Below are positions 25,910 to 38,002 of a stretch of DNA of 38,002 nucleotides, in pieces; the first letter of the stretch is position 1; each line of letters opens with the position of its first letter. The stretch spans positions 1 through 38,002 of the forward strand of contig JAKMEQ010000037.1 of NCBI GenBank assembly GCA_022425805.1, read 5' to 3'. The translations under genes and the position numbers were made by a program. Below the pieces are notes generated by a model. That model worked only from the letters and a program-made list of their open reading frames with translations, ran no database searches and was not told where the DNA came from. Source of the stretch: Acidimicrobiales bacterium (GTDB lineage Bacteria; Actinomycetota; Acidimicrobiia; Acidimicrobiales; UBA8592).

Positions 25910-26065
25910 AGAGCACCCTTAGTTGTTCTTCCTCTTTCAGGGTAGTCATATTGACAGGCAGGCCGGTGCAGGAGAGCGTCAAACCCTGAGACGTTTTTTA
26001 TTCTCTATTTGACACAGCGGCAGAGGGTTGAGAATGTAGGGAAAATTCATTAATTGGAGACTTGC

Positions 26066-27148
26066 ATGGATATTCCTTTATTGCCTTCTGAGATAACCCC
26101 AGACTGGTTGACGACTGCTCTACGTTCTAACGAATCTTTCAGTGATGTAGAGGTTGCTTCACTAGCGATACAGGACATAGGTGCAGGAACTGGCATCTTC
26201 GGAGAGATCGGCCTCTTGAGAGTAGAATATGTGGTGCAAGGGAAAGCACCAGATTCACTAGTTATAAAAATGCCATGTGTGGAACCTGAGAACCTCGCTG
26301 TTGCACATGCCTTAGGTATCTACCAAAGAGAATTGAACTTTTTTTCTCATATTGCCCCATCAGCAAGTTTGCGTGTACCGGATTGCTATTACTCATATAT
26401 GGACTCGGATGGCCGTTTCGTTCTGCTCTTAGAGAATTTATCCGTAAATTACGTTGTAGGGGACCAGATCGTTGGAGCAACTGATGAGCAGGTCATTAAT
26501 GCTGTTGAAACGCTCGCGCAATTCCACATTGACTGGTGGGAGAAAGAAGACTTGTCATCTTTATCGTGGTTGCCTGTTCCTGATGACCCGGCTTATATGG
26601 CTGCGGTTCCAAATATTTACCGTGCTGGCTTACCGGTGCTCATCCAAGACTGGTCTGATCGTGTTCCTGCAGAAAGCATCACGATAGCGCAAGAGATCGA
26701 ACCCGATTTTGAGAATCTGATGCTGATGTTCGCAGGAGGTCCACATACGTTTAGTCATGCTGATACAAGGTTAGACAACTTATTCTTTGCCCGCGATAAA
26801 TCATCTGACGTAGCTTTCATAGACTTTCAACTATGTTTGAAGGCCCGGGGGGTAAACGACATAGCTTATTTGGTCGGAAACAGCGTACCGAAAGAATTAG
26901 CAGCGGAACATTGGGAACGGTACCTACGAAAATGGCTTGATCGTATTCAAGCTGCAGGCATTTTGTATTCTTGGGATGATGCTATTTCCCACTATCGGCA
27001 GGCAGTTCTTTATTATACGGTCGGCGCGATGTCATTAATAGGTTCATTTGATACTGGAAATGAGCGTGGGGCCGCCATGGCGGAAGCATACGTGACACGT
27101 ATCTTTAATCATGTCGTTGATATTGAAGCAGCGAGAGTTTTTCGATAA
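26066..27148 (+). CDS. APH-type phosphotransferase (small-molecule kinase)
   Basis: A 360-residue kinase-like protein. Lys68 (LVIKMP) is in the ATP-binding lobe position; HADTRLDN (His231, Asp233, Asn238) is the Brenner catalytic loop and IDFQ (Asp253) the metal-binding motif. The layout is that of the aminoglycoside phosphotransferase/ecdysteroid-kinase-like group, which includes many environmental kinases of unknown small-molecule substrates. Antibiotic resistance should not be inferred. The frame begins with a TTG at 26054, but the ATG at 26066 has GGAG six bases upstream and is preferred. A second member lies at 28008. Confidence 0.82.
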   Translation: MDIPLLPSEITPDWLTTALRSNESFSDVEVASLAIQDIGAGTGIFGEIGLLRVEYVVQGKAPDSLVIKMPCVEPENLAVAHALGIYQRELNFFSHIAPSASLRVPDCYYSYMDSDGRFVLLLENLSVNYVVGDQIVGATDEQVINAVETLAQFHIDWWEKEDLSSLSWLPVPDDPAYMAAVPNIYRAGLPVLIQDWSDRVPAESITIAQEIEPDFENLMLMFAGGPHTFSHADTRLDNLFFARDKSSDVAFIDFQLCLKARGVNDIAYLVGNSVPKELAAEHWERYLRKWLDRIQAAGILYSWDDAISHYRQAVLYYTVGAMSLIGSFDTGNERGAAMAEAYVTRIFNHVVDIEAARVFR

Positions 27149-27228: not shown

Positions 27229-27939
27229 TTAGGAAGACACCCGATAATGTTTCCCTTCTTTCGTGTGCTTTAGTTCGATGATTGTCCCAGCATTGCGGAA
27301 ACAGTATGCCATTTGTTGAGCGATCCCTCGCGATATATTGCCAAGTGTTGCAATATCAGCAGTTGTGAAAACTTCCGGAAGTCCCTTAGGGAGAAGTCTC
27401 ATAAAATCTTCAATACCTGCAAAAGTATGGTTGGAGTGAACTTCAATAAGTTCAGTATTGATAGTCCGGTACCCACCACGTCGCCTCCGCAATGATGGGT
27501 CATATTCCTGAATTTTTTGTACAGACACACAGACAACTTCGAAACTTAAATTGGGATGTGTAAGAAATTCGGGGATAGAAACTAGCTCCTCAAAAACGGT
27601 GTAGAGAGTTCCCTTTTTTGGTGATTTCCGACGTTTCTGATCAGGTTTGATGAGATATATCTCTACAGGAACGGGATAGATAACAACGATCTGGTAGTCG
27701 TTTAGAAGGTGGGAAAGTTTCTTCCGCATTGCTGCAAACGATGTTGTTTGAACTTCAAATAAGATCGATTTCTTTCCTGAACTCCGAACAATATCAATAA
27801 CAAACCCATCAATCGTGACTTCGAATGCGTCTCCCGATATAGCAGCGAGTTGTTTCATTGCTGAATGTAATGATCCCTCATTAAGTGTTCCAATATTGAT
27901 TTCTTTACTGTAACCTGACAGCGCCTTCCCATGTGTCAA
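27229..27939 (-). CDS. Uncharacterised protein with possible PD-(D/E)XK-like core and winged-helix tail
   Basis: A 236-residue protein not assigned to a known function. The N-terminal region has Glu21 (LNEGSLH), then Asp49 in GFVIDIV and Glu62-Val-Gln64 in LFEVQT, followed by a helix and VVIYPV; this acid/beta-strand/E-x-Q pattern resembles the PD-(D/E)XK nuclease fold, and from memory the uncharacterised family DUF8091. The middle is lysine/arginine-rich (RRKSPKKG). The last 50 residues (FTTADIATLG ... AGTIIELKH ... HYRVSS) look like a winged-helix domain. The only start codon is a TTG at 27939 with a weak ribosome binding site. It sits alone between two kinase genes on the other strand. DNA binding or cleavage is an inference only. 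Confidence 0.55.
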   Translation of the reverse strand: MTHGKALSGYSKEINIGTLNEGSLHSAMKQLAAISGDAFEVTIDGFVIDIVRSSGKKSILFEVQTTSFAAMRKKLSHLLNDYQIVVIYPVPVEIYLIKPDQKRRKSPKKGTLYTVFEELVSIPEFLTHPNLSFEVVCVSVQKIQEYDPSLRRRRGGYRTINTELIEVHSNHTFAGIEDFMRLLPKGLPEVFTTADIATLGNISRGIAQQMAYCFRNAGTIIELKHTKEGKHYRVSS

Positions 27940-28007: not shown

Positions 28008-29180
28008 ATGAGAAAGAAGGAGACGCCATTTGTCCCACAGAACGGAGAAGATTTCACGGCTGAATGGTTCACTGACTGCCTGCAGGAACAATTCGGAGCT
28101 GCTGTCCTCGAGGTCAACCGTGAAATCATTGGAACTGGGATTGGCTTTATTGGTGAAATACACCGATGCCATCTTTTCTGGGATGCTGAACGCCCTGACC
28201 TTCCGGAGTCGGTGATAGTAAAAGTTCCATCCAAAATACCTTCTAACCGAGCTTTAGGTGAGGGACTTCAGCTTTATGAACGGGAAACTATTTCTTACCG
28301 TGAACTTGGTAACACAATGGGCTTACCTATGCCCAAGATGTTCTTTTCAGCAATGGATGATGACCCGATACCTTGGTTGGATAGAGTCATCGACTTTCTC
28401 TTCACTAGTCTTCCTATCGGAGCTGTGAACTGGATCACCGTACAGTTCTTAAGAGTTACAGCTAAAAATCCTCGACTGCGCCGGCATCTACTTATCATCG
28501 AAGATATCACTGACGCCCGTCCTCCGAGTCAAGTAGCCGGTGGATCATTAGACGATGCCATAATTGCTCTTACTACATTGGCTAAATTCCACGCAGCTCA
28601 TTGGATGCGGGAAGAGTCCATGGATATCTCCAGTCGGATATGGCCTTTAGACCGACTCCCAAAAGTCTGGCAGGCAAACTACCGGCGAAACCGGAATGAA
28701 TTCCTTCACCGCTTCAGAGAGTTAGTTGGTAGCGAGAAAATCCGTCAACTTGACCAGGCGCAAGTAGATATGCCCAATCTGCTCCGCCCTCTCGGCGAAG
28801 CCCCATGGACCCTTCTCCATGGAGATTACCGGCTTGATAACATCATGTACCGTCCAGATGGCAGCCTCGTCATCATAGATTACCAGATGCTATCGAAAGG
28901 TCGTCCAGGCTGGGATGCTGCTTATTTCATCACTACAGCTCTTAATCCTGAGCACAAAATAGAAGAGGACCGATTGCTACAGCACTACCACCAAGTTCTT
29001 TGCGCATCAGGGGTTTCAGATTACCCCTACATCATGTTCTTGGAAGATGTTCGCTTAACAAAATTGTTGCTCGCTCATCGTCTGGTAGGTGGGAGGGATT
29101 CCTTTGAAACTGAACTACAGGACAACGATGAAACCTTTGTTGATCTTCTGGTTAAAAGGGTTGTCGGCTGGATCGAATAG
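28008..29180 (+). CDS. APH-type phosphotransferase (small-molecule kinase)
   Basis: A 390-residue kinase-like protein with VIVKVP (Lys72), the catalytic loop HGDYRLDN (His271, Asp273, Asn278) and IIDYQ (Asp291). It shares overall layout with the kinase at 26066 but is clearly diverged and has an inserted region around 120-160. It probably phosphorylates a hydroxyl group of an unknown small molecule or acyl-CoA precursor; some relatives work beside acyl-CoA dehydrogenases. The ATG at 28008 follows a run of G (GGGGGG) that can serve as ribosome binding site. It ends 13 bases before the stop of the convergent FAD protein. Confidence 0.82.
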   Translation: MRKKETPFVPQNGEDFTAEWFTDCLQEQFGAAVLEVNREIIGTGIGFIGEIHRCHLFWDAERPDLPESVIVKVPSKIPSNRALGEGLQLYERETISYRELGNTMGLPMPKMFFSAMDDDPIPWLDRVIDFLFTSLPIGAVNWITVQFLRVTAKNPRLRRHLLIIEDITDARPPSQVAGGSLDDAIIALTTLAKFHAAHWMREESMDISSRIWPLDRLPKVWQANYRRNRNEFLHRFRELVGSEKIRQLDQAQVDMPNLLRPLGEAPWTLLHGDYRLDNIMYRPDGSLVIIDYQMLSKGRPGWDAAYFITTALNPEHKIEEDRLLQHYHQVLCASGVSDYPYIMFLEDVRLTKLLLAHRLVGGRDSFETELQDNDETFVDLLVKRVVGWIE

Positions 29181-29193
29181 TGCCCGAAGATTC

Positions 29194-30570
29194 TTAGTCT
29201 TCAACAACATGACTTTCAAAACGGTTAAGCGCCGTCGACCATGCAAGATCATTGAACTCCCCATCTTTAGAGAGGGCATGTGCGGCATCCCATCCCATCG
29301 CAAGAGTGTGATGAATGTTGTCTGGAACGATCAGTCCTTGCCTTCCAAAGCTGGATAAACGACCGAGCGAATTACCCCACTGCAAGAGAGTCTTACGCTC
29401 CTCTCGTGTAGAAGATTCAAAAACTGGATAAACAGACGGAAGTCTGCGAACTTCCGTCGTCACAAGTTTCATTTTTGGTAGCCCTAAGCGAATGAGATCA
29501 TCACTAACAATATTTCCTAACTCTTCATTTGAGGCTGACCAGATAGCATCAGTCTTCCAGCATGGGAGTTCAGCACATAAGATGGTCTGATCTTTTGGGT
29601 CAGAGCCATCCCGATAGTTCTTCGGCTCAGAAAGACGAGCAATCCTAGTATCGAGACCGGGGAAATAATGAGCATCGAATTCTGTGAATTGTGGCTGGTC
29701 CAACACTAAGTAGACGAGAACCATCCCGCGCACACGTAATGCTGCTGCCGCTTCTGTTACATTCTTATCTGGTTTGGGCCTTACGATTGTTGGCAAAATA
29801 TTAAGGGGAGATGTCGTCCAAACAAGTTCTGCTATATGTCTGCCATTTATTGACTCTAAATGGCAGTCACCATCATTTAAATGAATCTGTTGTACCGGAG
29901 AATTTAATTCTATTTTCCCACCTGCGGAGATTACGGCATCGGCAATAGCTTCAACGATCTGTCCATAGCCATTTCGAGGGTAAAGAAAAGCTCTGCCGGA
30001 CGGAGATGAAGATTTGATTAAACGACGAAGAATAGTAAGAGGGGATGATGCTGAAACTCTACGTCGCGCCAATTCACTATCGATTTTGCTCGGGTGGAAC
30101 CCCCATAACTTTTCGGCATAAGGCGTGTAGAACTCATCTGAAACCGTTTTCCCCAACCTGCGAGTAACTTCATGCTGAAAGGTATCTTCATTAGCTCCGA
30201 GAAATGGTCTTCGGACAATATCAAATGCTGAACTAATAGAAAATTTCAATGGGAGGTGACGAAAGAGGTCCGCTGTCCGTAGAGGAAATGCCACCCACTT
30301 GTCATAAAGACGTATTCGTCCATTTCGTTGGCGGGTTTGCAGGTCTTCGCCAAGTAAAGATCTAATTGCTTCTAAAAGGTGAGGGGGAGTCGAAGGGTGG
30401 AGGCGATGTGATCCGTAATCTACCCGTTGACCTTCTATTGAAAAGCTTGCAGACATGCCGCCTACGTCGGAGCTTCCTTCGAAGACAGTAACCTCATGTC
30501 CAGCTTCTGCTGCTTGCCATGCAGCCATTAATCCGGCCGGTCCCGCCCCAACGATAGCTACCTCCGTCAT
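29194..30570 (-). CDS. FAD-dependent amine-oxidase/UDP-galactopyranose-mutase-like protein
   Basis: A 458-residue flavoprotein. The N-terminus has VAIVGAGPAGLMAAW, an acidic ribose-binding residue (VTVFEG) and GGMSASF followed by VDYGSHRLHP. YTPYAEKLWGF is typical of the group that includes protoporphyrinogen-oxidase-like and UDP-galactopyranose-mutase-like enzymes found in polysaccharide clusters. It might isomerise or oxidise a nucleotide sugar or a lipid-linked glycan. It diverges from the NDP-sugar epimerase across about 110 bases that contain a putative iron box overlapping a minus-strand TACAAT -10 hexamer. The ribosome binding site is weak (AAGAAA). The substrate is unknown; heme synthesis is less likely in this context. 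Confidence 0.75.
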   Translation of the reverse strand: MTEVAIVGAGPAGLMAAWQAAEAGHEVTVFEGSSDVGGMSASFSIEGQRVDYGSHRLHPSTPPHLLEAIRSLLGEDLQTRQRNGRIRLYDKWVAFPLRTADLFRHLPLKFSISSAFDIVRRPFLGANEDTFQHEVTRRLGKTVSDEFYTPYAEKLWGFHPSKIDSELARRRVSASSPLTILRRLIKSSSPSGRAFLYPRNGYGQIVEAIADAVISAGGKIELNSPVQQIHLNDGDCHLESINGRHIAELVWTTSPLNILPTIVRPKPDKNVTEAAAALRVRGMVLVYLVLDQPQFTEFDAHYFPGLDTRIARLSEPKNYRDGSDPKDQTILCAELPCWKTDAIWSASNEELGNIVSDDLIRLGLPKMKLVTTEVRRLPSVYPVFESSTREERKTLLQWGNSLGRLSSFGRQGLIVPDNIHHTLAMGWDAAHALSKDGEFNDLAWSTALNRFESHVVED

Positions 30571-30614
30571 GCGTTTCTTAAATATTCCATAGGGTTGTGC
30601 GCTCCAGAATGACT

Positions 30615-30632
30615 ATTGTAAGGTAAACCTAA
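30615..30632 (-). promoter_or_regulatory. Putative DtxR/IdeR-type box over a -10 element
   Basis: TAAGGTAAACCTAA at 30619-30632 matches TTAGG-N4-CCTAA in 9 of 10 palindrome positions. It overlaps TACAAT, read on the minus strand at 30615-30620, which is a good -10 for the FAD protein gene. A plus-strand promoter for the epimerase may also lie close by (TATAAA/TATAGA downstream). A single 9/10 match is expected by chance about once in a window this long, so the site rests on its position and on the further sites at 35719, 37375 and 37468. Confidence 0.45.
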
Positions 30633-30686
30633 TTATAAATGTAAACTATAGATGTCATTTATTGATATGAATACCGATTGCAGGGA

Positions 30687-31658
30687 ATGATGGGAAAATC
30701 AATTGTTACAGGAGCTGCAGGCTTCATAGGTTCGCATCTCACTGAACGTCTTTTAGACATGGGAGAGACTGTAGTTGGAATTGACAACTTTGACCCCTGG
30801 TACGACCCTAAATCAAAAGAATCGAATATTCGGTTCGCTCTCGCTAATCCAGATTTCTCAATAATAAAAGAGGACGTCCTATCTTTGGACTTAGGGAAAG
30901 TCTTCAATGAGGGCGACGTTGTTTATCACCTAGCCGCTCGACCCGGAGTGCAAGATTCATGGAATACAGGATTTTCTGCAAGTGTTGAAAATAACATCCT
31001 CGCCACCCAGCAAGTCTTCGAATCTGCTTTAATAAGCGGGGTGCGGCGGGTCGTTTTTGCGTCAAGCTCTTCTGTGTATGGAGAGTCAGCCACAGAGGAC
31101 ACTAAATCTATTTCTCCCATAAGCCCATACGGGGTTTCAAAAGCAGCATGTGAGCAACTTGCTGATGTATATCGAGCTCGTGGTTTAGACATAATGATCA
31201 TGAGGTATTTCACTGTATATGGACCCCGCCAACGTCCTGATATGGCAATGAACCGACTATTCCGTGCCACCCTCCCTGGGACATACAGATTCCCCCTCCG
31301 CGGTAATGGAAGTCAAAGGAGGGAATTCACATTTATGAAAGATGTTGTTACTGCCAGCATCAAAGCAGGAAGTTTAGATCTCCAAGAAATCTCTGCCCCA
31401 TTTGATGTTGGCGGAGGTGTTTCCGCTTCACTCGGTGAAGTGATGTCAATTGTTGAGGAGCTCGTAGGGGCTCAGCTGCGGATAGATCAGGAACCTCTAG
31501 CGGTAGGAGATCCACTTATCACTGTAGCTTCAACAGATTTCACGGAAAGCGTTCTAGATTGGAAAGCTACCACAGACCTCAGAGAGGGGCTAGCGCAACA
31601 TTATGACTCCTTTAAAGAAAGGGTTTCATCTAATTCGGGAGAAATAGTCGAATTTTGA
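30687..31658 (+). CDS. NAD-dependent epimerase/dehydratase (extended SDR)
   Basis: An extended SDR of about 323 residues. It has VTGAAGFIGSHL for NAD binding, YHLAARPGV, the catalytic SSSSVYGE with YGVSKAACE (YxxxK), and MRYFTVYGPRQRPDM. This is the layout of UDP-glucose/UDP-glucuronate 4-epimerases and related NDP-sugar dehydratases, which supply activated sugars for surface glycans. The frame starts at a TTG (30678), but the ATG at 30687 places the glycine motif right at the N-terminus; ATG 30690 is an alternative. The last 58 bases overlap the 3' end of the convergent GT-C-like gene. Confidence 0.85.
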   Translation: MMGKSIVTGAAGFIGSHLTERLLDMGETVVGIDNFDPWYDPKSKESNIRFALANPDFSIIKEDVLSLDLGKVFNEGDVVYHLAARPGVQDSWNTGFSASVENNILATQQVFESALISGVRRVVFASSSSVYGESATEDTKSISPISPYGVSKAACEQLADVYRARGLDIMIMRYFTVYGPRQRPDMAMNRLFRATLPGTYRFPLRGNGSQRREFTFMKDVVTASIKAGSLDLQEISAPFDVGGGVSASLGEVMSIVEELVGAQLRIDQEPLAVGDPLITVASTDFTESVLDWKATTDLREGLAQHYDSFKERVSSNSGEIVEF

Positions 31659-33010
31659 GCCTTCCCTTTCCGCAGGAATGGCAGGATCGATAATACTGAT
31701 AGAGCGATCCACAATATATTGAGTAGAGCTGATTTCGTTCCAAAATCCCTGAAGTTTGGGAAAATAGAAAATAGAAACCTATATATGGGGTATCCGGTTT
31801 CTTCAAAATCAACAATCAATGTTCGACGACCGGTCTGTGCTTCTACCGCTAGCCAAATCCATCCGGTTATAGCAACAACCCCTCCGGAAAAAATATACCA
31901 GCGCCAAACCTTATGTTTCTCAGATAATATCGCTAGCAAAATAATTGCTGCAGGTAGTATCACAACAAGTTGCCGGCCTGGCCACCACCATCCATGCATA
32001 GTTAGCGCTACCCAAGTAGCGACAACCCAACCAGTTACCGTTACCACCCCGAGAACAGACCAATGCTTAACCCGCCATTTTATTGCAGCGACACATGAAG
32101 GAATAAGAGCAAAATAGAATGGAGCCCATGGGACTAAACCAAACCCCCTATCAAACAGCAACCCTGACAACCTTCGAGAGCGGGCAGAAAAATTTGGATT
32201 TCTCCCGACGACTTCGAATTCTCCATTAATGAAATGGTCCCCACTTGAGTAGACGGTCCACCCACCATAAATACGTTGATGAATAAAGAGATATATCAGG
32301 CCAGAAGCAAATAAAATTCCTCCGAAGATGAATAGGTCTTTAAGATTTTTCTTACGAAGGAGAACTACGGTTACGAAAACAAGGGCAAAAGCCACGGGGA
32401 CGTATTTCACCGATAGCCATGGCAAGGCGGTCACCGGAATGGATAGCCAGAGAAGTTGGGGTCTTTTAAGTTCTGAAGTCACAAGGCCAACTCCAAGTAC
32501 CAAACACAAAGCAGCAAGCATCTCAGGGTAGACCTGTGTCGCGTACACAGTCATTGGCGGAGCAGCAAAAGACATCCCGACAACGACAGTAGCAATAGAT
32601 TCAGAAACTGAGAAACGTCGAACTGCTACCCAAAGTGTTGCCGCCGCTGTCACGGCAGCAATCAAAGCAAGAGTAAGCTTCGCTGCCAGCCATCCTCCCA
32701 ATCCCATCGGTATTGCCAAAATAAGAGGAAGCAGGGGATCATGGGGGCTAATCCGCTGCCCTTCCTCATTCAGGTCAATTGTTTGCTGATTTAGTTTCAA
32801 TGGGTGATACGCCCAGTATTTTTTATCTTCAAGTTCATCGCTGATATCAAGATCCCCGTCTTCTATAAGACTCTGAGCAGTAAGGAGATACTGAGGTTCA
32901 TCAACACTTATTTTTGCTCCATAAGTAGCTTGCGCATTTATCGCCACCATGGCGAATGCAAAAGTAGTAATAGCTACAAGAACAAGCTTCAGCCGAAATG
33001 AACGGCTCAT
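31601..33010 (-). CDS. GT-C-like polytopic membrane protein
   Basis: A 469-residue membrane protein with about ten or more hydrophobic segments. After the first helix comes VDEPQYLL with an acidic pair (Asp37-Glu38) in the first external loop, where GT-C enzymes using polyprenyl-phosphate sugars keep their catalytic acid. Loops with HPL and ISPHDPLL follow. I therefore read it as a GT-C-type glycosyltransferase, though function is unproven. Its ATG overlaps the stop of the upstream iron permease gene as ATGA, so it is translationally coupled to an Fe(III) transporter, which is an unusual pairing. The 3' end overlaps the convergent epimerase gene by 58 bases. Confidence 0.65.
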   Translation of the reverse strand: MSRSFRLKLVLVAITTFAFAMVAINAQATYGAKISVDEPQYLLTAQSLIEDGDLDISDELEDKKYWAYHPLKLNQQTIDLNEEGQRISPHDPLLPLILAIPMGLGGWLAAKLTLALIAAVTAAATLWVAVRRFSVSESIATVVVGMSFAAPPMTVYATQVYPEMLAALCLVLGVGLVTSELKRPQLLWLSIPVTALPWLSVKYVPVAFALVFVTVVLLRKKNLKDLFIFGGILFASGLIYLFIHQRIYGGWTVYSSGDHFINGEFEVVGRNPNFSARSRRLSGLLFDRGFGLVPWAPFYFALIPSCVAAIKWRVKHWSVLGVVTVTGWVVATWVALTMHGWWWPGRQLVVILPAAIILLAILSEKHKVWRWYIFSGGVVAITGWIWLAVEAQTGRRTLIVDFEETGYPIYRFLFSIFPNFRDFGTKSALLNILWIALSVLSILPFLRKGKAQNSTISPELDETLSLKES

Positions 33011-34611
33011 AGGTGATCGGCTCTACGGATTACCAGAAACCATGTAAGTGCGAAAGAAAGAAGCACGAGGATCACAGCCATGATTCCTGCTTCCGCAACG
33101 AATGCATCTTCAAATGAACTAAATATCCGCGTTGCGAGAGTCGAAAATCCGAGTGGCGAAATTAGGAGAGTGATTGGGAGTTCTTTCATGGTTGAGAGGA
33201 TCACAAGTCCTGCTGCCGCTGCTAAACCCGGCGCCATAAGAGGAATATCTATCCGAAAAAAACGTGATGGTCTCTTAGCCCCAAGTGTTTGTCCCACGTC
33301 ATGGAGTCTTTTCGGAACTGCAGCGACTGCGACAAGTACTACTCCCATGGCAAGTGAACCAAATCGCACAATATATGAGAATACAAGAAGAGTCTTTGTA
33401 TTATCTAGAAGCTCAAAAGCCCAATCCGTGCGTAAAACCCAGAACCGCATTGATAAGGCAATGAGAAGGCCAGGAACAGCAAAGGTAGCGATTACTACTG
33501 CATGAGCAATGCTTCCGGTACGTGACCGGTAGCGGGCTACGAGAAAAGCTATAGGTAGAACCGCTAACACAGCAACGAAACCTGAAATGACGCTGATAGA
33601 GAGAGTATTCCATGTGGACTCTATAACCTGTCCCCTATCAACTGTTAGTGGAGACCCACCACGCGTGGTCCGAGATATTCCATCGGCGGCCCAATCTCCC
33701 AAGGCAAGCATGGGAGCCCCGATCGAAAGAAGCAGTACTAACAGAACTGTCGCTAGACCAGGTATACGCCATTTACCTAATGTGTACCTAACAGGTTTTC
33801 CTGTAAGAGTTTCTTCAGAAGTAAACGTTACTTTTGAGAAAAACCGTTCTGAAAGCACAATTACAGCAGCAAGAAGAAGAAGCAAAAGGCTCAAAGCGAG
33901 AGCTGTTGATTGATTAATTAAACGGTTCGTATAAATACTGCGCGTTAAAGTGTCGTAACGCATAAGTTGAACAGCGCCAAAATCACTAATGGTATAGAGA
34001 AAGACAAGGAGGCTGCCAGCAGCGAGAATCGACCCTATCTGCGGCAAAACAATCCGTCTAAACGTTTGGAAGGAAGATTGTCCTAAAACTCGTGCATTCT
34101 CCTCTAACGACCCTGGAAGTTGGCGTAAACGTGCTGCAACAGGGAGATAAACATATGGGTAACAAAAAAGAGTCAGGACCAACCATGCCCCAAAGAACCC
34201 TCGCATTTCCACGATCGTATCTATCCCAATCCCGCCCAACATACGATTTATTAATCCGCCAGGGTTCATCGTCCGAATAAAGGCAGCTGCTCCGATGAAG
34301 GTCGGGAATACTAAGGGTATTGGAAGCAAGATTCGCCAAAGACGATTTCCGAAAAGATCAGTGCGACTAGTGAGCCAAGCAAGAGCTGTCCCAATCACAG
34401 CGGTCGTCATTGAAACGGTAAAGGCCAGGGAGACAGTCCTCCATAAAGGAGCAAGTACCCGTTGAGTGCTAATCAATCCAATCGGATCAGATTCCTCTGT
34501 GAAGTTACGCCAGACAAGGTATAGGCCCGGAAAGCTAAATAGAAATGCAAAAGCATAAACTATCAGCCGGAGCGTAACCGGAGTTGATCGTTTTATTTCA
34601 ATTTGGCTCAC
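33007..34611 (-). CDS. Fe(III) ABC transporter permease (FbpB/FutB type, fused)
   Basis: A 534-residue permease containing two BPD_transp_1 units of about six helices each, the fused two-domain form typical of iron(III) and thiamine ABC importers (FbpB, SfuB, ThiP). EAA-type loops are visible as ENARVLGQSSFQTFRRIVLP in the first half and DVGQTLGAKRPSRFFRIDIP in the second. It should form the membrane channel for iron delivered by the binding protein encoded just upstream. The start is a GTG at 34611 that overlaps the upstream stop as GTGA. No ATPase gene is found in the window, so that subunit would have to be supplied from elsewhere. Confidence 0.87.
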   Translation of the reverse strand: MSQIEIKRSTPVTLRLIVYAFAFLFSFPGLYLVWRNFTEESDPIGLISTQRVLAPLWRTVSLAFTVSMTTAVIGTALAWLTSRTDLFGNRLWRILLPIPLVFPTFIGAAAFIRTMNPGGLINRMLGGIGIDTIVEMRGFFGAWLVLTLFCYPYVYLPVAARLRQLPGSLEENARVLGQSSFQTFRRIVLPQIGSILAAGSLLVFLYTISDFGAVQLMRYDTLTRSIYTNRLINQSTALALSLLLLLLAAVIVLSERFFSKVTFTSEETLTGKPVRYTLGKWRIPGLATVLLVLLLSIGAPMLALGDWAADGISRTTRGGSPLTVDRGQVIESTWNTLSISVISGFVAVLAVLPIAFLVARYRSRTGSIAHAVVIATFAVPGLLIALSMRFWVLRTDWAFELLDNTKTLLVFSYIVRFGSLAMGVVLVAVAAVPKRLHDVGQTLGAKRPSRFFRIDIPLMAPGLAAAAGLVILSTMKELPITLLISPLGFSTLATRIFSSFEDAFVAEAGIMAVILVLLSFALTWFLVIRRADHL

Positions 34612-35705
34612 TTATTAAGGATGCCACTTGCCTCGATGATTCGCGACGCTTCTTCAAAACCTCCACCAAGTTTATCGAAGTCAACTGATCCAATTTCCAA
34701 CGCTGTTAGTTCCGGTAAGGCTGCATTAGGTTGAATCCCCGCAGCAAGTGGATACTCGAACGTCCGATCAGTGAAATACTGCTGAACGGGACCTGTCAAC
34801 AAATATTGAAGGAGGTTTTCTGAAGCTTCAATATTTTCTGAAGACTGGAGAATCGTTGCAGCGGTTATCACAAGTAAAGAGCCTATATCCTTGTTATCGA
34901 AGTCGTAGTTTTCAGCTTTGTGAGCATTTCCTTCTGAGGCTTTGATTTGATAATTATAATAATGGTTAACCAGACCCATAGAAATCTCGCCTCTACCGGC
35001 TGCTTCTACGATAGATCGGTTATTGGGATAATAGGTCGCCCCGTTTGTGACCATGTCATCAAGCCATTGGGTTGCTACATCTTTGCCATGAACGTCCATA
35101 AAGACTGTAAACCAGTCAATAAACGAACCATTCGTGCCAGGTAGAGCTACTTTGTTACGGAATTCTTCGGCAGTAAGGTCAAAAACTGATTCGGGTAGGT
35201 CTTTTGGGCTGTATTCATCAGTGTTATATACCATGACACGTTTCCGTCCAGAGAAGCCGACCCAACGTCCAGCAGCAGATCGGTTCTGTGATTCGACAAG
35301 ATCGAGGGTTTCCGAACTGATTTCTCCAAGTAAGTCTTTTGATTCGAGATATCCGACAGGACCAGGTGAACGAGAAAGAAATACATCGGCGAGGGTTTTT
35401 TCCCCTTCTTCATTTATAAGAAGAGCTAAATCTGTCGAAGCGCCCCATCTAACTTGAACATTTGTTCCTGTTTCGCAGGCAAAGGCTTCAAGTACCGGAT
35501 TGATAAGATTTTCTGTTCTTCCTGAGTAAATCGTTACTGTGCTGCCATTTGAGCCAGCACACTTTTCGATACCTGGAGGATAAATCTCTGCAGCTCTCCC
35601 ATCAATAGTCTGAGGGTTTCCGTTGCCGCAAGAAGCAAGGATTAAAATAGTTATTAGGGTTAAAAAAAGGATTCGTAATCTCATGGCGTTGAACTGTACC
35701 CGCAT
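34608..35705 (-). CDS. Fe(III)-binding lipoprotein (FbpA/FutA type)
   Basis: An extracellular solute-binding protein of about 365 residues. It opens with a lipoprotein signal, hydrophobic FLTLITILILASC, where the cysteine near residue 26 would be lipidated. TIYSGRTENLI is typical of periplasmic iron-binding proteins, and NHYYNYQ (tyrosine pair about 249-250) matches the Tyr-Tyr iron ligand motif of FbpA-type proteins. It should deliver ferric iron to the permease encoded downstream. The frame opens with TTG at 35714; ATG at 35705 and ATG at 35684 are alternatives and no strong ribosome binding site selects among them. A minus-strand TACATT hexamer nine bases before the ATG at 35705 suggests a nearly leaderless transcript. 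Confidence 0.87.
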   Translation of the reverse strand: MRVQFNAMRLRILFLTLITILILASCGNGNPQTIDGRAAEIYPPGIEKCAGSNGSTVTIYSGRTENLINPVLEAFACETGTNVQVRWGASTDLALLINEEGEKTLADVFLSRSPGPVGYLESKDLLGEISSETLDLVESQNRSAAGRWVGFSGRKRVMVYNTDEYSPKDLPESVFDLTAEEFRNKVALPGTNGSFIDWFTVFMDVHGKDVATQWLDDMVTNGATYYPNNRSIVEAAGRGEISMGLVNHYYNYQIKASEGNAHKAENYDFDNKDIGSLLVITAATILQSSENIEASENLLQYLLTGPVQQYFTDRTFEYPLAAGIQPNAALPELTALEIGSVDFDKLGGGFEEASRIIEASGILNK

Positions 35706-35714
35706 TTTTACCAA

Positions 35715-35735
35715 AATGTAAAGCTATCCTAACGT
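35715..35735. promoter_or_regulatory. Divergent promoter with a putative DtxR/IdeR-type box
   Basis: Only 35 bases separate the ATG codons at 35705 (minus) and 35741 (plus). TAAAGCTATCCTAA at 35719-35732 matches the TTAGG-N4-CCTAA palindrome in 8 of 10 positions. It overlaps a minus-strand TACATT (35715-35720) and a plus-strand TAACGT (35730-35735), each spaced to give leaderless or nearly leaderless transcripts. A repressor bound here would block both directions. The match is the weakest of the four boxes. Confidence 0.4.
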
Positions 35736-35740
35736 TTAGT

Positions 35741-37363
35741 ATGAAGTTAGCTCGTCATAGCCATTATCTTAAGAATCCTTTTATCGTCTTCTTCGTATCG
35801 GTAGTCAGCCTAGGAACAGCTGCGGTCGTTATTTTTCAGTTGATAGATGTTTCTTCCTTCAAGGATGCTATTCGTCAGGCTAGTGATGAGCCTTTAGGTG
35901 TCTGTCTTGCTATCGGCTCGTTTGCCTTAGCATTTTTTCTTAGAGCATTAGCATGGAAGAAAGTACTCCCATCGATTTCACTTAAGCAAAGCCTTGCAGG
36001 AATTCACCTTTCACTTGGCGCTAACCATGTCCTCCCCTTCAGACTCGGTGAACCTTTTCGGGTTGTGAGTATTGTCAGGAGAAGTTCTACTTCAATTGAT
36101 GCAGCTACAGCTTCCACATTGACCTTGCGATCGGCAGATGTACTCTGTGTGATTGTGATTGGTGCCGTAATAGCCCCAGCAGCTTTTGCTGATTTGCTCG
36201 GATGGGTTGGTTGGGTATTAATCGGGATTATCAGTGTTATCTGTTTTTTTTCCTTCGATTGGTTAAAAAAAATTGTCAAACGTAACGATTCTGTCAAATT
36301 ACCAGGCCCTGTCGCTATCGGACTTTCAGCAGTTGCTTGGCTATTGGAATCGATATTGGTTTGGCAATGCGCACACTGGGCGGGTTTGAATGTCTCTTGG
36401 AGCGATGCCCTACTTGTAACAACAGTTGCGGTTGGAGCTCAAATTGCAGCTATCGCTCCAGGTGGTTTTGGGACTTACGAGGCTGCAGCCGTTGCGGCAT
36501 ATGTAACTTTAGGATATGAGGCTGAAGCTGCACTTGTCTCTGCCCTAACTGCTCATACTTTAAAAACTATCTACTCGCTTGTTGCAGGTGGAATAGCTAT
36601 TTTGACTCCTAAACCAAATCTATTAGGACGGATCCGGCTCCAAAACACTTCAGAGTTAAAGCCCGTTCGTTCTCTAGTAAACAATCCCGTACTTCTGTTT
36701 CTCCCTGCCTTCAATGAAGAAGATGCTGTCGCTGACTGTATCCGGCGTGTCCCAAAGCAAGTATGTGGCCTACCTGTGCAATGTCTAGTTATTGACGATG
36801 GGTCAAAAGACAATACAGCGGAACTTGCGGCCGCCGAGGGAGCAGAAGTTATTTCACTACAACAAAATCAAGGTTTAGGAGCAGCAGTCCGAGTTGGGCT
36901 TTCGGAAGGAGTAAATCGTGATGCAAGCGCTGTTGTATTTGCAGATGCAGATGGAGAATACCCACCAGAAGAACTCCAAAACCTTGTAGAACCAATCCTT
37001 AGTGGGCAGGCAGATTATGTAGTTGGCAGCAGGTTTTTGGGCGATATTCAATTCATGCGACCCCATCGAAGATTCGGGAATTTAGTACTTACACGTATTC
37101 TTTCACTTATTGCGAGAAGAAAAATCACAGACGGACAAAGCGGGTATCGGTCTTTCTCACCACGGGCAGCGAATGCAGCAGAGATAATTCATGATTTCAA
37201 TTACGCCCAAGTCATTACACTCGACTTGCTTGCAAAGGGGTTTACCTATTTAGAAGTTCCTATCAGTTACCATTTTCGAACAACAGGTGAAAGCTTCATA
37301 AAGCTTTTTCCATACCTTCGTAAAGTTATTCCAGCTGTTTATCGAGAAGTAAATTCAACCTAA
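35741..37363 (+). CDS. UPF0104/LPG-synthase-type membrane domain fused to GT2 glycosyltransferase
   Basis: A 540-residue two-domain protein. Residues 1-290 form an integral membrane domain of the UPF0104/lysylphosphatidylglycerol synthase transmembrane type, with NHVLPFRLGEPFR (95-107) and the hallmark APGGFGTYEA (239-248). Residues 315-540 form a GT2 glycosyltransferase: LPAFNEEDAV, VIDDGSKDNT (350-359), the metal-binding DADG (402-405) and the GQSGYRSF loop (465-472). It resembles dolichyl/polyprenyl-phosphate sugar synthases. These two modules are usually separate genes; here one chain would make and perhaps flip a lipid-linked sugar. The ATG at 35741 lacks a ribosome binding site and follows TAACGT by five bases, suggesting a leaderless mRNA. 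It is divergent from the iron-binding protein gene. Confidence 0.82.
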   Translation: MKLARHSHYLKNPFIVFFVSVVSLGTAAVVIFQLIDVSSFKDAIRQASDEPLGVCLAIGSFALAFFLRALAWKKVLPSISLKQSLAGIHLSLGANHVLPFRLGEPFRVVSIVRRSSTSIDAATASTLTLRSADVLCVIVIGAVIAPAAFADLLGWVGWVLIGIISVICFFSFDWLKKIVKRNDSVKLPGPVAIGLSAVAWLLESILVWQCAHWAGLNVSWSDALLVTTVAVGAQIAAIAPGGFGTYEAAAVAAYVTLGYEAEAALVSALTAHTLKTIYSLVAGGIAILTPKPNLLGRIRLQNTSELKPVRSLVNNPVLLFLPAFNEEDAVADCIRRVPKQVCGLPVQCLVIDDGSKDNTAELAAAEGAEVISLQQNQGLGAAVRVGLSEGVNRDASAVVFADADGEYPPEELQNLVEPILSGQADYVVGSRFLGDIQFMRPHRRFGNLVLTRILSLIARRKITDGQSGYRSFSPRAANAAEIIHDFNYAQVITLDLLAKGFTYLEVPISYHFRTTGESFIKLFPYLRKVIPAVYREVNST

Positions 37364-37374
37364 CAGCATAAATA

Positions 37375-37388
37375 TTAGGCTTACTTAA
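37375..37388 (+). promoter_or_regulatory. Putative DtxR/IdeR-type box, distal site of the 37516 gene
   Basis: TTAGGCTTACTTAA matches TTAGG-N4-CCTAA in 9 of 10 positions and also matches the right half of the IdeR consensus in 12 of 14. It lies 12 bases after the upstream stop codon and 93 bases before the more perfect site at 37468. Alone it could be chance. Confidence 0.4.
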
Positions 37389-37405
37389 TAAAAGACGATA
37401 TGTAT

Positions 37406-37430
37406 ACCTTAGTTTTTTTCAATCTAAGGT
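37406..37430 (+). repeat. Small hairpin (7-bp arms) between two putative iron boxes
   Basis: ACCTTAG (37406-37412) and CTAAGGT (37424-37430) are reverse complements around an 11-base T-rich loop. The T-run lies in the loop rather than after the stem, so it is not a normal terminator. It may end the upstream transcript weakly or form part of the operator region. Confidence 0.4.
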
Positions 37431-37467
37431 TGTCATTCCATTAGACATGTAGCCATAATGATGATTG

Positions 37468-37487
37468 TTAGGTATGCCTAATATAAA
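37468..37487 (+). promoter_or_regulatory. Perfect TTAGG-N4-CCTAA palindrome over the -10 of the lipoprotein gene
   Basis: TTAGGTATGCCTAA at 37468-37481 has both arms perfect; extended to 19 bases it agrees with the published IdeR/DtxR consensus TTAGGTTAGGCTAACCTAA in 14 positions. TATAAA (37482-37487) adjoins it, with a poor -35 upstream. By simple arithmetic an exact palindrome of ten fixed bases is expected about 0.04 times in 38 kb, so this is the strongest of the boxes. It suggests metal-dependent repression of the gene starting at 37516. Confidence 0.6.
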
Positions 37488-37515
37488 CCCCCTATTACTT
37501 TCTTAAGGAGAAACT

Positions 37516-38002
37516 TTGAGATCAAAACTTTTACTCTTAACATTCCCAATCCTAGCCATCTTCAGCCTCGTAGCTGCCAGTTGCGGCGATGACGACGGCG
37601 GCGGCGTTCGGGATTTAAATAGTTCATCAAACTCTGCAAGTTCAGGATCTAGCTCCGCTTCAGGATCTAGCTCCGCTTCAGCGTCTAGCTCCGCTTCAGC
37701 ATCTAGTCCCGCTTCAGCATCTAGCTCCGCTTCAGCATCATCGGCAGCAGAAGTTGTCGCTGATACCACTCCTGGCGATGGTGGATATGAATACGCTTCT
37801 AACGTTGACTCACATCGTCTCGTCGTCGCAGATATTTGCGACATAAATGATGCGCTTGGAGAATACAACTGGGCTGCAGCGCTTGAGATCTATGAAAACG
37901 GAAAAAATTCTGTTAAATCTTCAGGTTCTGTTCGGACCATCGGCGGCTTCGCTGCTGCAGAAGGAAAGGGTCATGGTTTCGATACTTTCTATGGAACACC
38001 AA
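37516..38002 (+). CDS. Repeat-linker lipoprotein resembling FEA1-type low-iron proteins (partial)
   Basis: An open frame runs from a TTG at 37516 off the end of the window (162 codons seen). AAGGAG at 37505-37510, five bases upstream, supports the start. A lipoprotein signal (LLLTFPILAIFSLVAASC) ends in a lipobox cysteine at residue 23, followed by an acidic/glycine stretch and a Ser/Ala-rich linker encoded by five 18-base repeats. The globular part then begins: ADICDINDALGEYN, LEIYENGKNSVKS, SVRTIGGFAA and FDTFYG. From memory these resemble the FEA1/low-iron-inducible periplasmic protein domain. The promoter carries two putative iron boxes, which fits a surface protein made under iron limitation. 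The C-terminus is missing, so the family is tentative. Confidence 0.6.
   Translation, partial: MRSKLLLLTFPILAIFSLVAASCGDDDGGGVRDLNSSSNSASSGSSSASGSSSASASSSASASSPASASSSASASSAAEVVADTTPGDGGYEYASNVDSHRLVVADICDINDALGEYNWAAALEIYENGKNSVKSSGSVRTIGGFAAAEGKGHGFDTFYGTP
37645..37734 (+). repeat. Five tandem 18-base repeats encoding a Ser/Ala linker
   Basis: Five consecutive copies of an 18-base unit (first copy GGATCTAGCTCCGCTTCA; later ones begin GCG or GCA, and one has AGTCCC) keep the reading frame and encode six residues each, Gly/Ala-Ser-Ser-Ser/Pro-Ala-Ser. They form a flexible spacer between the lipid anchor and the folded domain. Copy number can change by slippage without shifting frame. Confidence 0.9.

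Follow-up and report, generated by a model that had tools for sequence, protein, structure and literature searches.

A putative DtxR/IdeR-type cassette linking Fe(III) import to polyprenyl-phosphate-based glycan synthesis in an Acidimicrobiales bacterium

Growth is iron-limited across much of the ocean, and little is known of how uncultured marine actinobacteria capture this metal. Here we describe a gene block of about 9 kb at the end of contig JAKMEQ010000037.1 from an Acidimicrobiales bacterium (assembly GCA_022425805.1; 1.57 Mb, 74% complete), whose closest relatives with a name in the genome collection belong to the marine Acidimicrobiia and are known as metagenome-assembled genomes and single cells. 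The contig was analyzed over its complete length of 38,002 bp (C89, hereafter the window). The block combines genes of a predicted Fe(III) transporter and of an algal-type low-iron protein with those of a putative glycan pathway, and DtxR-type boxes lie in its regulatory regions. No published account of such a cassette was found in the literature searched, which omits most subscription journals.

Several described systems resemble parts of the block. The DtxR/IdeR iron regulons of Actinomycetota share with it a regulator of the IdeR/DtxR family, TTAGG/CCTAA half-sites and iron-uptake targets. However, their known operator is a 19-bp element with N9 spacing, whereas here a 14-16 bp N4 box is dominant, residues M10 and C102 of the regulator are replaced, and genes for building a glycan are a constant component of the proposed regulon. 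The FbpABC/HitABC/SfuABC transporters likewise combine a binding protein of the FbpA fold family carrying a Tyr-Tyr pair, a fused permease and a dedicated ATPase, but in our case the lineage is monoderm and FbpA is a lipoprotein, a GT-C gene closes the operon, and the ATPase gene stands apart from fbpA-fbpB. The algal FEA1/ISIP2a (phytotransferrin) low-iron proteins have the Fea1 domain in common with the block's lipoprotein, which is, in contrast, bacterial, bears a Ser-rich stalk (NF038033) and is a predicted iron binder.

The glycan genes recall the ArnC/ArnT and mycobacterial polyprenyl-phosphate-sugar systems, in which a UDP-uronate-derived sugar is loaded by a GT2 enzyme, flipped and transferred by a GT-C enzyme, and the fold predicted for the GT-C protein of the block is nearest ArnT. 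Unlike in those systems, the flippase-like domain and GT2 are fused here, the predicted sugar is galacturonate and control is by a DtxR-type box; moreover, no lipid A is expected in this lineage. The last parallel comes from the mycobacterial pairs FecB-AftB and LpqZ-AftA, in which a lipoprotein of the substrate-binding protein (SBP) type is tied to a GT-C envelope enzyme (PMC12802301). The mycobacterial SBPs are orphans without a shown iron role, whereas the block comes with DtxR boxes and a complete Fe(III) ABC system.

We regard it as fairly probable that the block forms a metal-responsive cassette of the DtxR/IdeR type, whose two outputs are Fe(III) import and a polyprenyl-phosphate sugar pathway directed to the envelope. 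A metal-bound repressor (C76:2670-3341; many relatives carry its gene within the block) would occupy GTTAGG-N4-CCTAAC boxes in three regulatory regions and, as iron falls, would be released, allowing both gene sets to be expressed. The FEA1 lipoprotein would then serve as a surface Fe(III) binder, and FbpA-FbpB together with FbpC as the Fe(III) importer. On the glycan side, the epimerase would convert UDP-glucuronate into UDP-galacturonate, the flavoenzyme may alter the ring form of the sugar, the GT2 domain would attach the sugar to polyprenyl phosphate, the flippase-like domain fused to it would turn the lipid-linked sugar outward, and the ArnT-like GT-C would move it to an envelope acceptor. 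From the gene families, gene order, conservation, box footprint and key residues, all of which are observed, we infer repressor binding, iron as the signal, the sugar and the direction of flow. The linkage of the genes and their shared operator are well supported at the sequence level, and certainty falls from regulator binding through the metal and the sugar to the benefit. Iron shortage would thus probably alter surface sugars as well as iron uptake, within a regulon that looks small and local.

The sequence-only reading of the window had proposed that the linkage is conserved and under shared DtxR/IdeR-type control, and this proposal survived checks of synteny, motif specificity and the presence of a DtxR/IdeR homologue, as far as sequence comparison reaches. 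A single scan with GT-C gave 58 loci outside this genome, in Acidimicrobiia and their relatives, and the block proved to be conserved far beyond the strain and the genus. The recurring order is FEA1/flippase-GT2, divergent from FbpA-FbpB-GT-C, which converges on the epimerase, itself divergent from the flavoenzyme, at 38-88% identity (for GT-C, down to about 38%). The flavoenzyme is present in 51 of the 58 loci, flippase-GT2 in 50, the FbpB permease in 45, FbpC and the epimerase in 32 each and FEA1 in 24. Within 10 kb of GT-C, tblastn detected Fe(III) ABC genes at 46 loci and a DtxR/IdeR-type regulator at 41; the commonest unrelated neighbor family occurs at 14. De novo clustering of neighboring open reading frames (ORFs) returned two recurring members that had not been sought, the FbpC ATPase and the DtxR-type regulator.

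GT-C itself is patchy in the order (24 of 248 genomes, over many families), and its co-occurrence with FEA1 in 60 relatives gave a Fisher p of about 6e-5, uncorrected for relatedness. A second FbpA subfamily, only about 24-28% identical to the FbpA of the window, has the same glycan genes as neighbors in L041, L062, L071, L075 and L078, and also in the held-out loci L158, L164 and L166; both subfamilies carry NHYY. Two different importers joined to one glycan module are hard to explain by inertia. The glycan genes also keep boxes or dtxR in loci with neither an importer nor FEA1 nearby, and an envelope acceptor is therefore likelier than one dedicated lipoprotein.

The boxes occur at four positions of the block. 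In the divergent flavoenzyme/epimerase promoter region lies TAAGGTAAACCTAA (30619..30632; one mismatch to TTAGG-N4-CCTAA), kept in every same-genus locus covering the region and also in other genera. Between fbpA and flippase-GT2 there is TTAGGATAGCTTTA (35719..35732, read on the minus strand; two mismatches), similarly conserved in same-genus and other-genus loci. FEA1 is preceded by a perfect box, TTAGGTATGCCTAA (37468..37481; no mismatches), at whose position congeners carry GTTAAGTAAACCTAATAT or GTTAGGTAACCCTTATA, and by a second one, TTAGGCTTACTTAA (37375..37388; one mismatch), for which the congeners listed show no counterpart at the equivalent position. The palindromes that had been reported in all three regulatory regions are indeed present at 30619, 35719, 37375 and 37468, and same-genus loci match where they are covered.

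Allowing two mismatches, the window has nine sites in 35.8 kb of coding DNA versus six in 2.2 kb of intergenic DNA, and four of these six fall in the block. Genome-wide, 35 sites have at most one mismatch, 30 of them in coding ORFs and five intergenic; three of the five are in the block and one is upstream of a gene convergent with dtxR. The specificity of the motif was assessed in divergent genomes against permuted and re-spaced controls, and the box proved specific to block promoters. Across 48 loci from outside the genus, 48 of the 163 regions upstream of block genes contain it with no more than one mismatch, compared with 2 of 163 for the best permuted half-site of the same composition, at most 4 for other spacers and 11 of 302 for non-block upstream regions. 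The consensus over 50 sites is GTTAGGTATACCTAAC, which resembles the classical DtxR box in its left part.

In 13 held-out loci, 11 boxes were found just upstream of block genes, at nine of the loci, and the best permutation gave one. The classical N9 spacing, with five, was the only other clear spacer signal, and the N4 form dominates. The total number of boxes in these loci, 13 versus 12 for two permuted half-sites, was not specific alone and was set aside as evidence; the held-out separation is that of the count upstream of block genes only (11 versus 1). In the held-out locus L171, dtxR and GT-C diverge around a perfect TTAGGTGCGCCTAA, and an FEA1-bearing genome from the same phylum, but not from the sampled order, has a perfect TTAGGGAAACCTAA in front of FEA1 (L154). 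Glycan genes with boxes and no importer nearby were found in L048, L050 and L084. The only other intergenic box of the genome with at most one mismatch, at C41:22543-22556 (L014), is upstream of a gene for a DAO-type FAD oxidoreductase and is possibly a chance match.

The genome encodes one DtxR homologue (C76:2670-3341; PF01325 and PF02742 above cut-off), and dtxR neighbors the block in 41 of the 58 loci. Its product has an N-terminal helix-turn-helix and a metal-binding/dimerisation domain, and the closest solved relative is IdeR (1fx7, 9.6e-36), followed by DtxR. The ancillary-site residues H79, E83 and H98 and the primary-site residues E105 and H106 are conserved in all regulators covering these positions. 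On C76, dtxR adjoins genes that neighbor the block in congeners, therefore a rearrangement separated dtxR and the block in this genome. Convergent with dtxR is a gene of 188 aa (C76:3334-3900; L003, L090), for which no Pfam or NCBIfam family was found; a perfect box, TTAGGCATACCTAA, lies about 142 bp upstream of it (C76:4042-4055), and in congeners its homologue is placed between the flavoenzyme gene and dtxR.

The gene families named for the 9-kb block in the earlier reading were all borne out, each gene at its position. The FbpA-type Fe(III)-binding lipoprotein (34608..35684, minus strand; the ORF runs to 35714, with the ATG at 35684 as its probable start codon) has the lipobox LILASC, matches the solved FbpA 7w3w at 3.8e-57 (phmmer) and carries the NHYY motif (Y252, Y253), which is kept at at least 95% in 30 sequences. 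Matches to FbpA on plasmids were all ordinary, below 60% identity. The next gene encodes a double-length, fused Fe(III) ABC permease of the FbpB type (33007..34611, minus strand; PF00528), and the third a polytopic, ArnT-like GT-C (31601..33010, minus strand), assigned by its predicted fold. Because overlaps of 4 bp are present at both the fbpA/fbpB and fbpB/GT-C junctions, the three genes look like one translationally coupled operon, of which GT-C is the last member. At its 3' end, GT-C overlaps the convergent epimerase gene by 58 bp (31601-31658), as also observed in the congeners L032 and L034, and the two transcripts could interfere with each other.

The FEA1-related lipoprotein gene (37516..38002, plus strand; NF038033 and PF07692) is cut by the contig end, and the window holds its 5' part with the Ser-rich linker. 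Contig C22 overlaps this end by 12 bp and the FEA1 reading frame carries on into it; an FbpC-type ATPase gene is located downstream of FEA1 and convergent with it (C22:789-1868). Since C22 continues FEA1 in frame and then carries this gene, the organism is, judged from its genes, equipped with the full FbpABC set. An FbpA-family SBP with Tyr-Tyr ligands and its permease and ATPase partners are all present, and FbpABC is a predicted Fe(III) importer.

In the NF038033 profile search (curated cut-off 250 bits), the C22 part of FEA1 alone scored 399 bits and the congener protein 633 bits, and the Fea1 domain PF07692 matched at 1.9e-29. Right after the lipid anchor, all 20 proteins examined have a linker of 44-97 residues with 20-49% Ser/Thr. 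The bacterial domain is predicted to be all-helical (congener copy L036:4309-5535) and gave no significant match to folds in the PDB; transferrin-like and imelysin-like assignments were dropped on these grounds. Algal Fea1 relatives are induced by low iron and iron-loaded in cells (PMC4855317, PMC7676907). No FEA1 carried by viruses was found.

The predicted UDP-glucuronate 4-epimerase, an NDP-sugar 4-epimerase (30678..31658, plus strand), has as its closest solved relatives BcUGAepi (6zl6, 2.5e-60) and MoeE5, both of which are UDP-glucuronate 4-epimerases. In BcUGAepi, P85, Q211, T280 and the carboxylate-binding Arg185 set this activity apart from UDP-glucose and UDP-xylose epimerases (PMC12338863). 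The equivalent residues are P89 (27 of 32 homologues), Q213 (30 of 32), T282 and R186 (32 of 32 each), and the enzyme is predicted to be specific for UDP-GlcA/GalA. A gene of the UDP-glucose/GDP-mannose dehydrogenase family is present in the genome and could be the source of UDP-glucuronate.

The flavoenzyme (29194..30570, minus strand) was placed, by profile and solved relatives, in the superfamily of UDP-galactopyranose mutase (UGM; UDP-galactopyranose-mutase/PRK07208 group). Its best solved relatives are UDP-galactopyranose mutases (4dsg, 1.9e-12; residues 3-246), and GSHRLH, R171 and R312 are kept in 36 of 36 sequences. R171 and R312 are putative counterparts of the UGM active-site arginines. 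The product of the fusion gene (35741..37363, plus strand) joins a flippase-like LPG_synthase_TM domain (PF03706) to a polyprenyl-phosphate GT2 domain (PF00535), the latter matching dolichyl-phosphate mannose synthase (5mlz, 9.8e-16) and, next, ArnC structures. An inverted repeat, ACCTTAG...CTAAGGT, follows this gene at 37407-37433 and is possibly a terminator or a degenerate operator.

GT-C matched no Pfam family. Its structure model (pTM 0.90) has ArnT (5ezm) as the best PDB fold (E 4.4e-5, TM-score ~0.5), followed by ALG12, ALG9, AftB, Emb and Pmt, and its extracytoplasmic acidic motif D37-E38-P39 is invariant. The epimerase residues, the dehydrogenase gene and the ArnT-like fold suggest that a uronic-acid-type sugar is loaded on polyprenyl phosphate, flipped and transferred outside. 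As the epimerase implies, this sugar is probably galacturonate.

Several observations weigh against a two-output, iron-responsive cassette. The main caution is the FecB-AftB case (PMC12802301), as an SBP-type lipoprotein beside GT-C need not serve iron uptake. One may go further and suppose that the glycan genes act in envelope biogenesis only, with the SBP-type lipoproteins as their partners, as for FecB-AftB and LpqZ-AftA. SBP-GT-C complexes are documented in actinobacteria and FecB comes from an iron-related SBP family (PMC12802301); furthermore, fbpA-fbpB-GT-C is translationally coupled and the GT-C fold also resembles AftB. We nevertheless consider this improbable. No transporter genes accompany the orphans FecB and LpqZ, whereas our FbpA is conserved together with a permease and an ATPase and keeps its Tyr-Tyr iron motif, and both the DtxR-type box and the algal-type low-iron protein would be left unexplained. 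The flavoenzyme activity and the GT-C donor are both only putative, and no box was seen adjoining the UDP-sugar dehydrogenase gene. The motif is not enriched in bulk in the genome (35 sites versus 58 for the reversed pattern), so this argument was dropped in favor of position and phylogenetic conservation. Some lineages, e.g. L065, L069, L076, L085, L163, L166, L167 and L174, have no box at one mismatch, the loci, being related, are not independent observations, and a divergent region entered the counts once for each of its genes. Divergent promoters share one box that is unassignable to one side and the loci are related by descent, thus the glycan genes might lie near iron genes through shared ancestry only, with the boxes serving the iron genes alone. 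This seems to us very improbable, as epimerase/flavoenzyme regions without an iron gene carry their own boxes, loci with no nearby importer keep boxes or dtxR beside the glycan genes, flanking genes beyond the block are not conserved, and the patchy GT-C genes are scattered over many families.

The regulator raises a further difficulty, since M10 of the primary site is Glu in 30 of 30 block regulators, and C102 is Gly in this genome and Gly, Asp, His or Ala in the block regulators of relatives (the solved-structure alignment shows the same substitutions). As M10 and C102 are not kept, we describe the protein as DtxR-like rather than IdeR, and its metal specificity may differ from that of IdeR. 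The DtxR-like subfamily of the C7 cluster (L032-L089) shows the same replacements at M10 and C102 and usually has Cys at position 12, which points to a changed metal site. The regulator might therefore answer manganese, another metal or iron excess, and MntR models do score, though lower. We find this unlikely: the nearest solved relatives are IdeR and DtxR, no Fur was detected at the tested threshold (an absence that is not firm in a 74%-complete genome), and the target genes encode Fe(III) importers and FEA1, a protein with an algal relative that is induced by low iron and loaded with iron (PMC4855317). Iron specificity is likely on this evidence. It was also suggested by the sequence-only reading that the glycan decorates the block's lipoproteins, and in its most concrete form the ArnT-like enzyme would O-glycosylate FEA1 on its Ser-rich stalk. 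The Ser/Thr-rich linker is present in all 20 FEA1 proteins examined and GT-C in 7 of 8 strong FEA1 genomes, but such linkers are common among lipoproteins. An FEA1 without block genes nearby (G506) also has a Ser/Thr-Gly linker, which weakens the linker as proof of glycosylation. In addition, 34 of the 58 loci have glycan genes without FEA1 nearby (some loci are truncated), in 7 of 60 genomes glycan genes occur with no strong FEA1 match, and glycan genes with boxes or dtxR persist where FEA1 and/or FbpA is absent. The decoration idea is weakened accordingly and we hold it to be rather unlikely; an envelope glycan concentrating cations near the lipoproteins is favored over decoration of one protein.

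The cassette with two outputs can be extended to a more speculative scenario, in which a uronic-acid surface glycan, made only in iron shortage, serves as the outermost component of iron capture, concentrating Fe(III) at the surface and passing it on to FEA1 and FbpABC. Such a glycan would act as an iron trap under a DtxR-type repressor, replacing siderophores in these bacteria. The earlier idea of an iron-binding glycan has only the predicted uronic-acid donor in its favor, and we offer this scenario tentatively, as a doubtful one. That an Fe(III) importer, a low-iron protein of algal type and a glycan pathway based on polyprenyl phosphate recur together, apparently under one regulator, suggests that the surface is remodeled as part of iron acquisition. 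The block offers a concrete case, amenable to testing, of a DtxR-type regulon that would extend into glycan synthesis, and it provides a bacterial setting for the study of the Fea1 domain.

No known RNA, including riboswitches, was identified in the window at Rfam gathering thresholds. Next to the block on the flavoenzyme side, an EcKL/APH-like kinase gene (28008-29180) and a gene that looks similar by eye (26054-27148) flank a gene of 236 aa without a Pfam or NCBIfam match (27229-27939).

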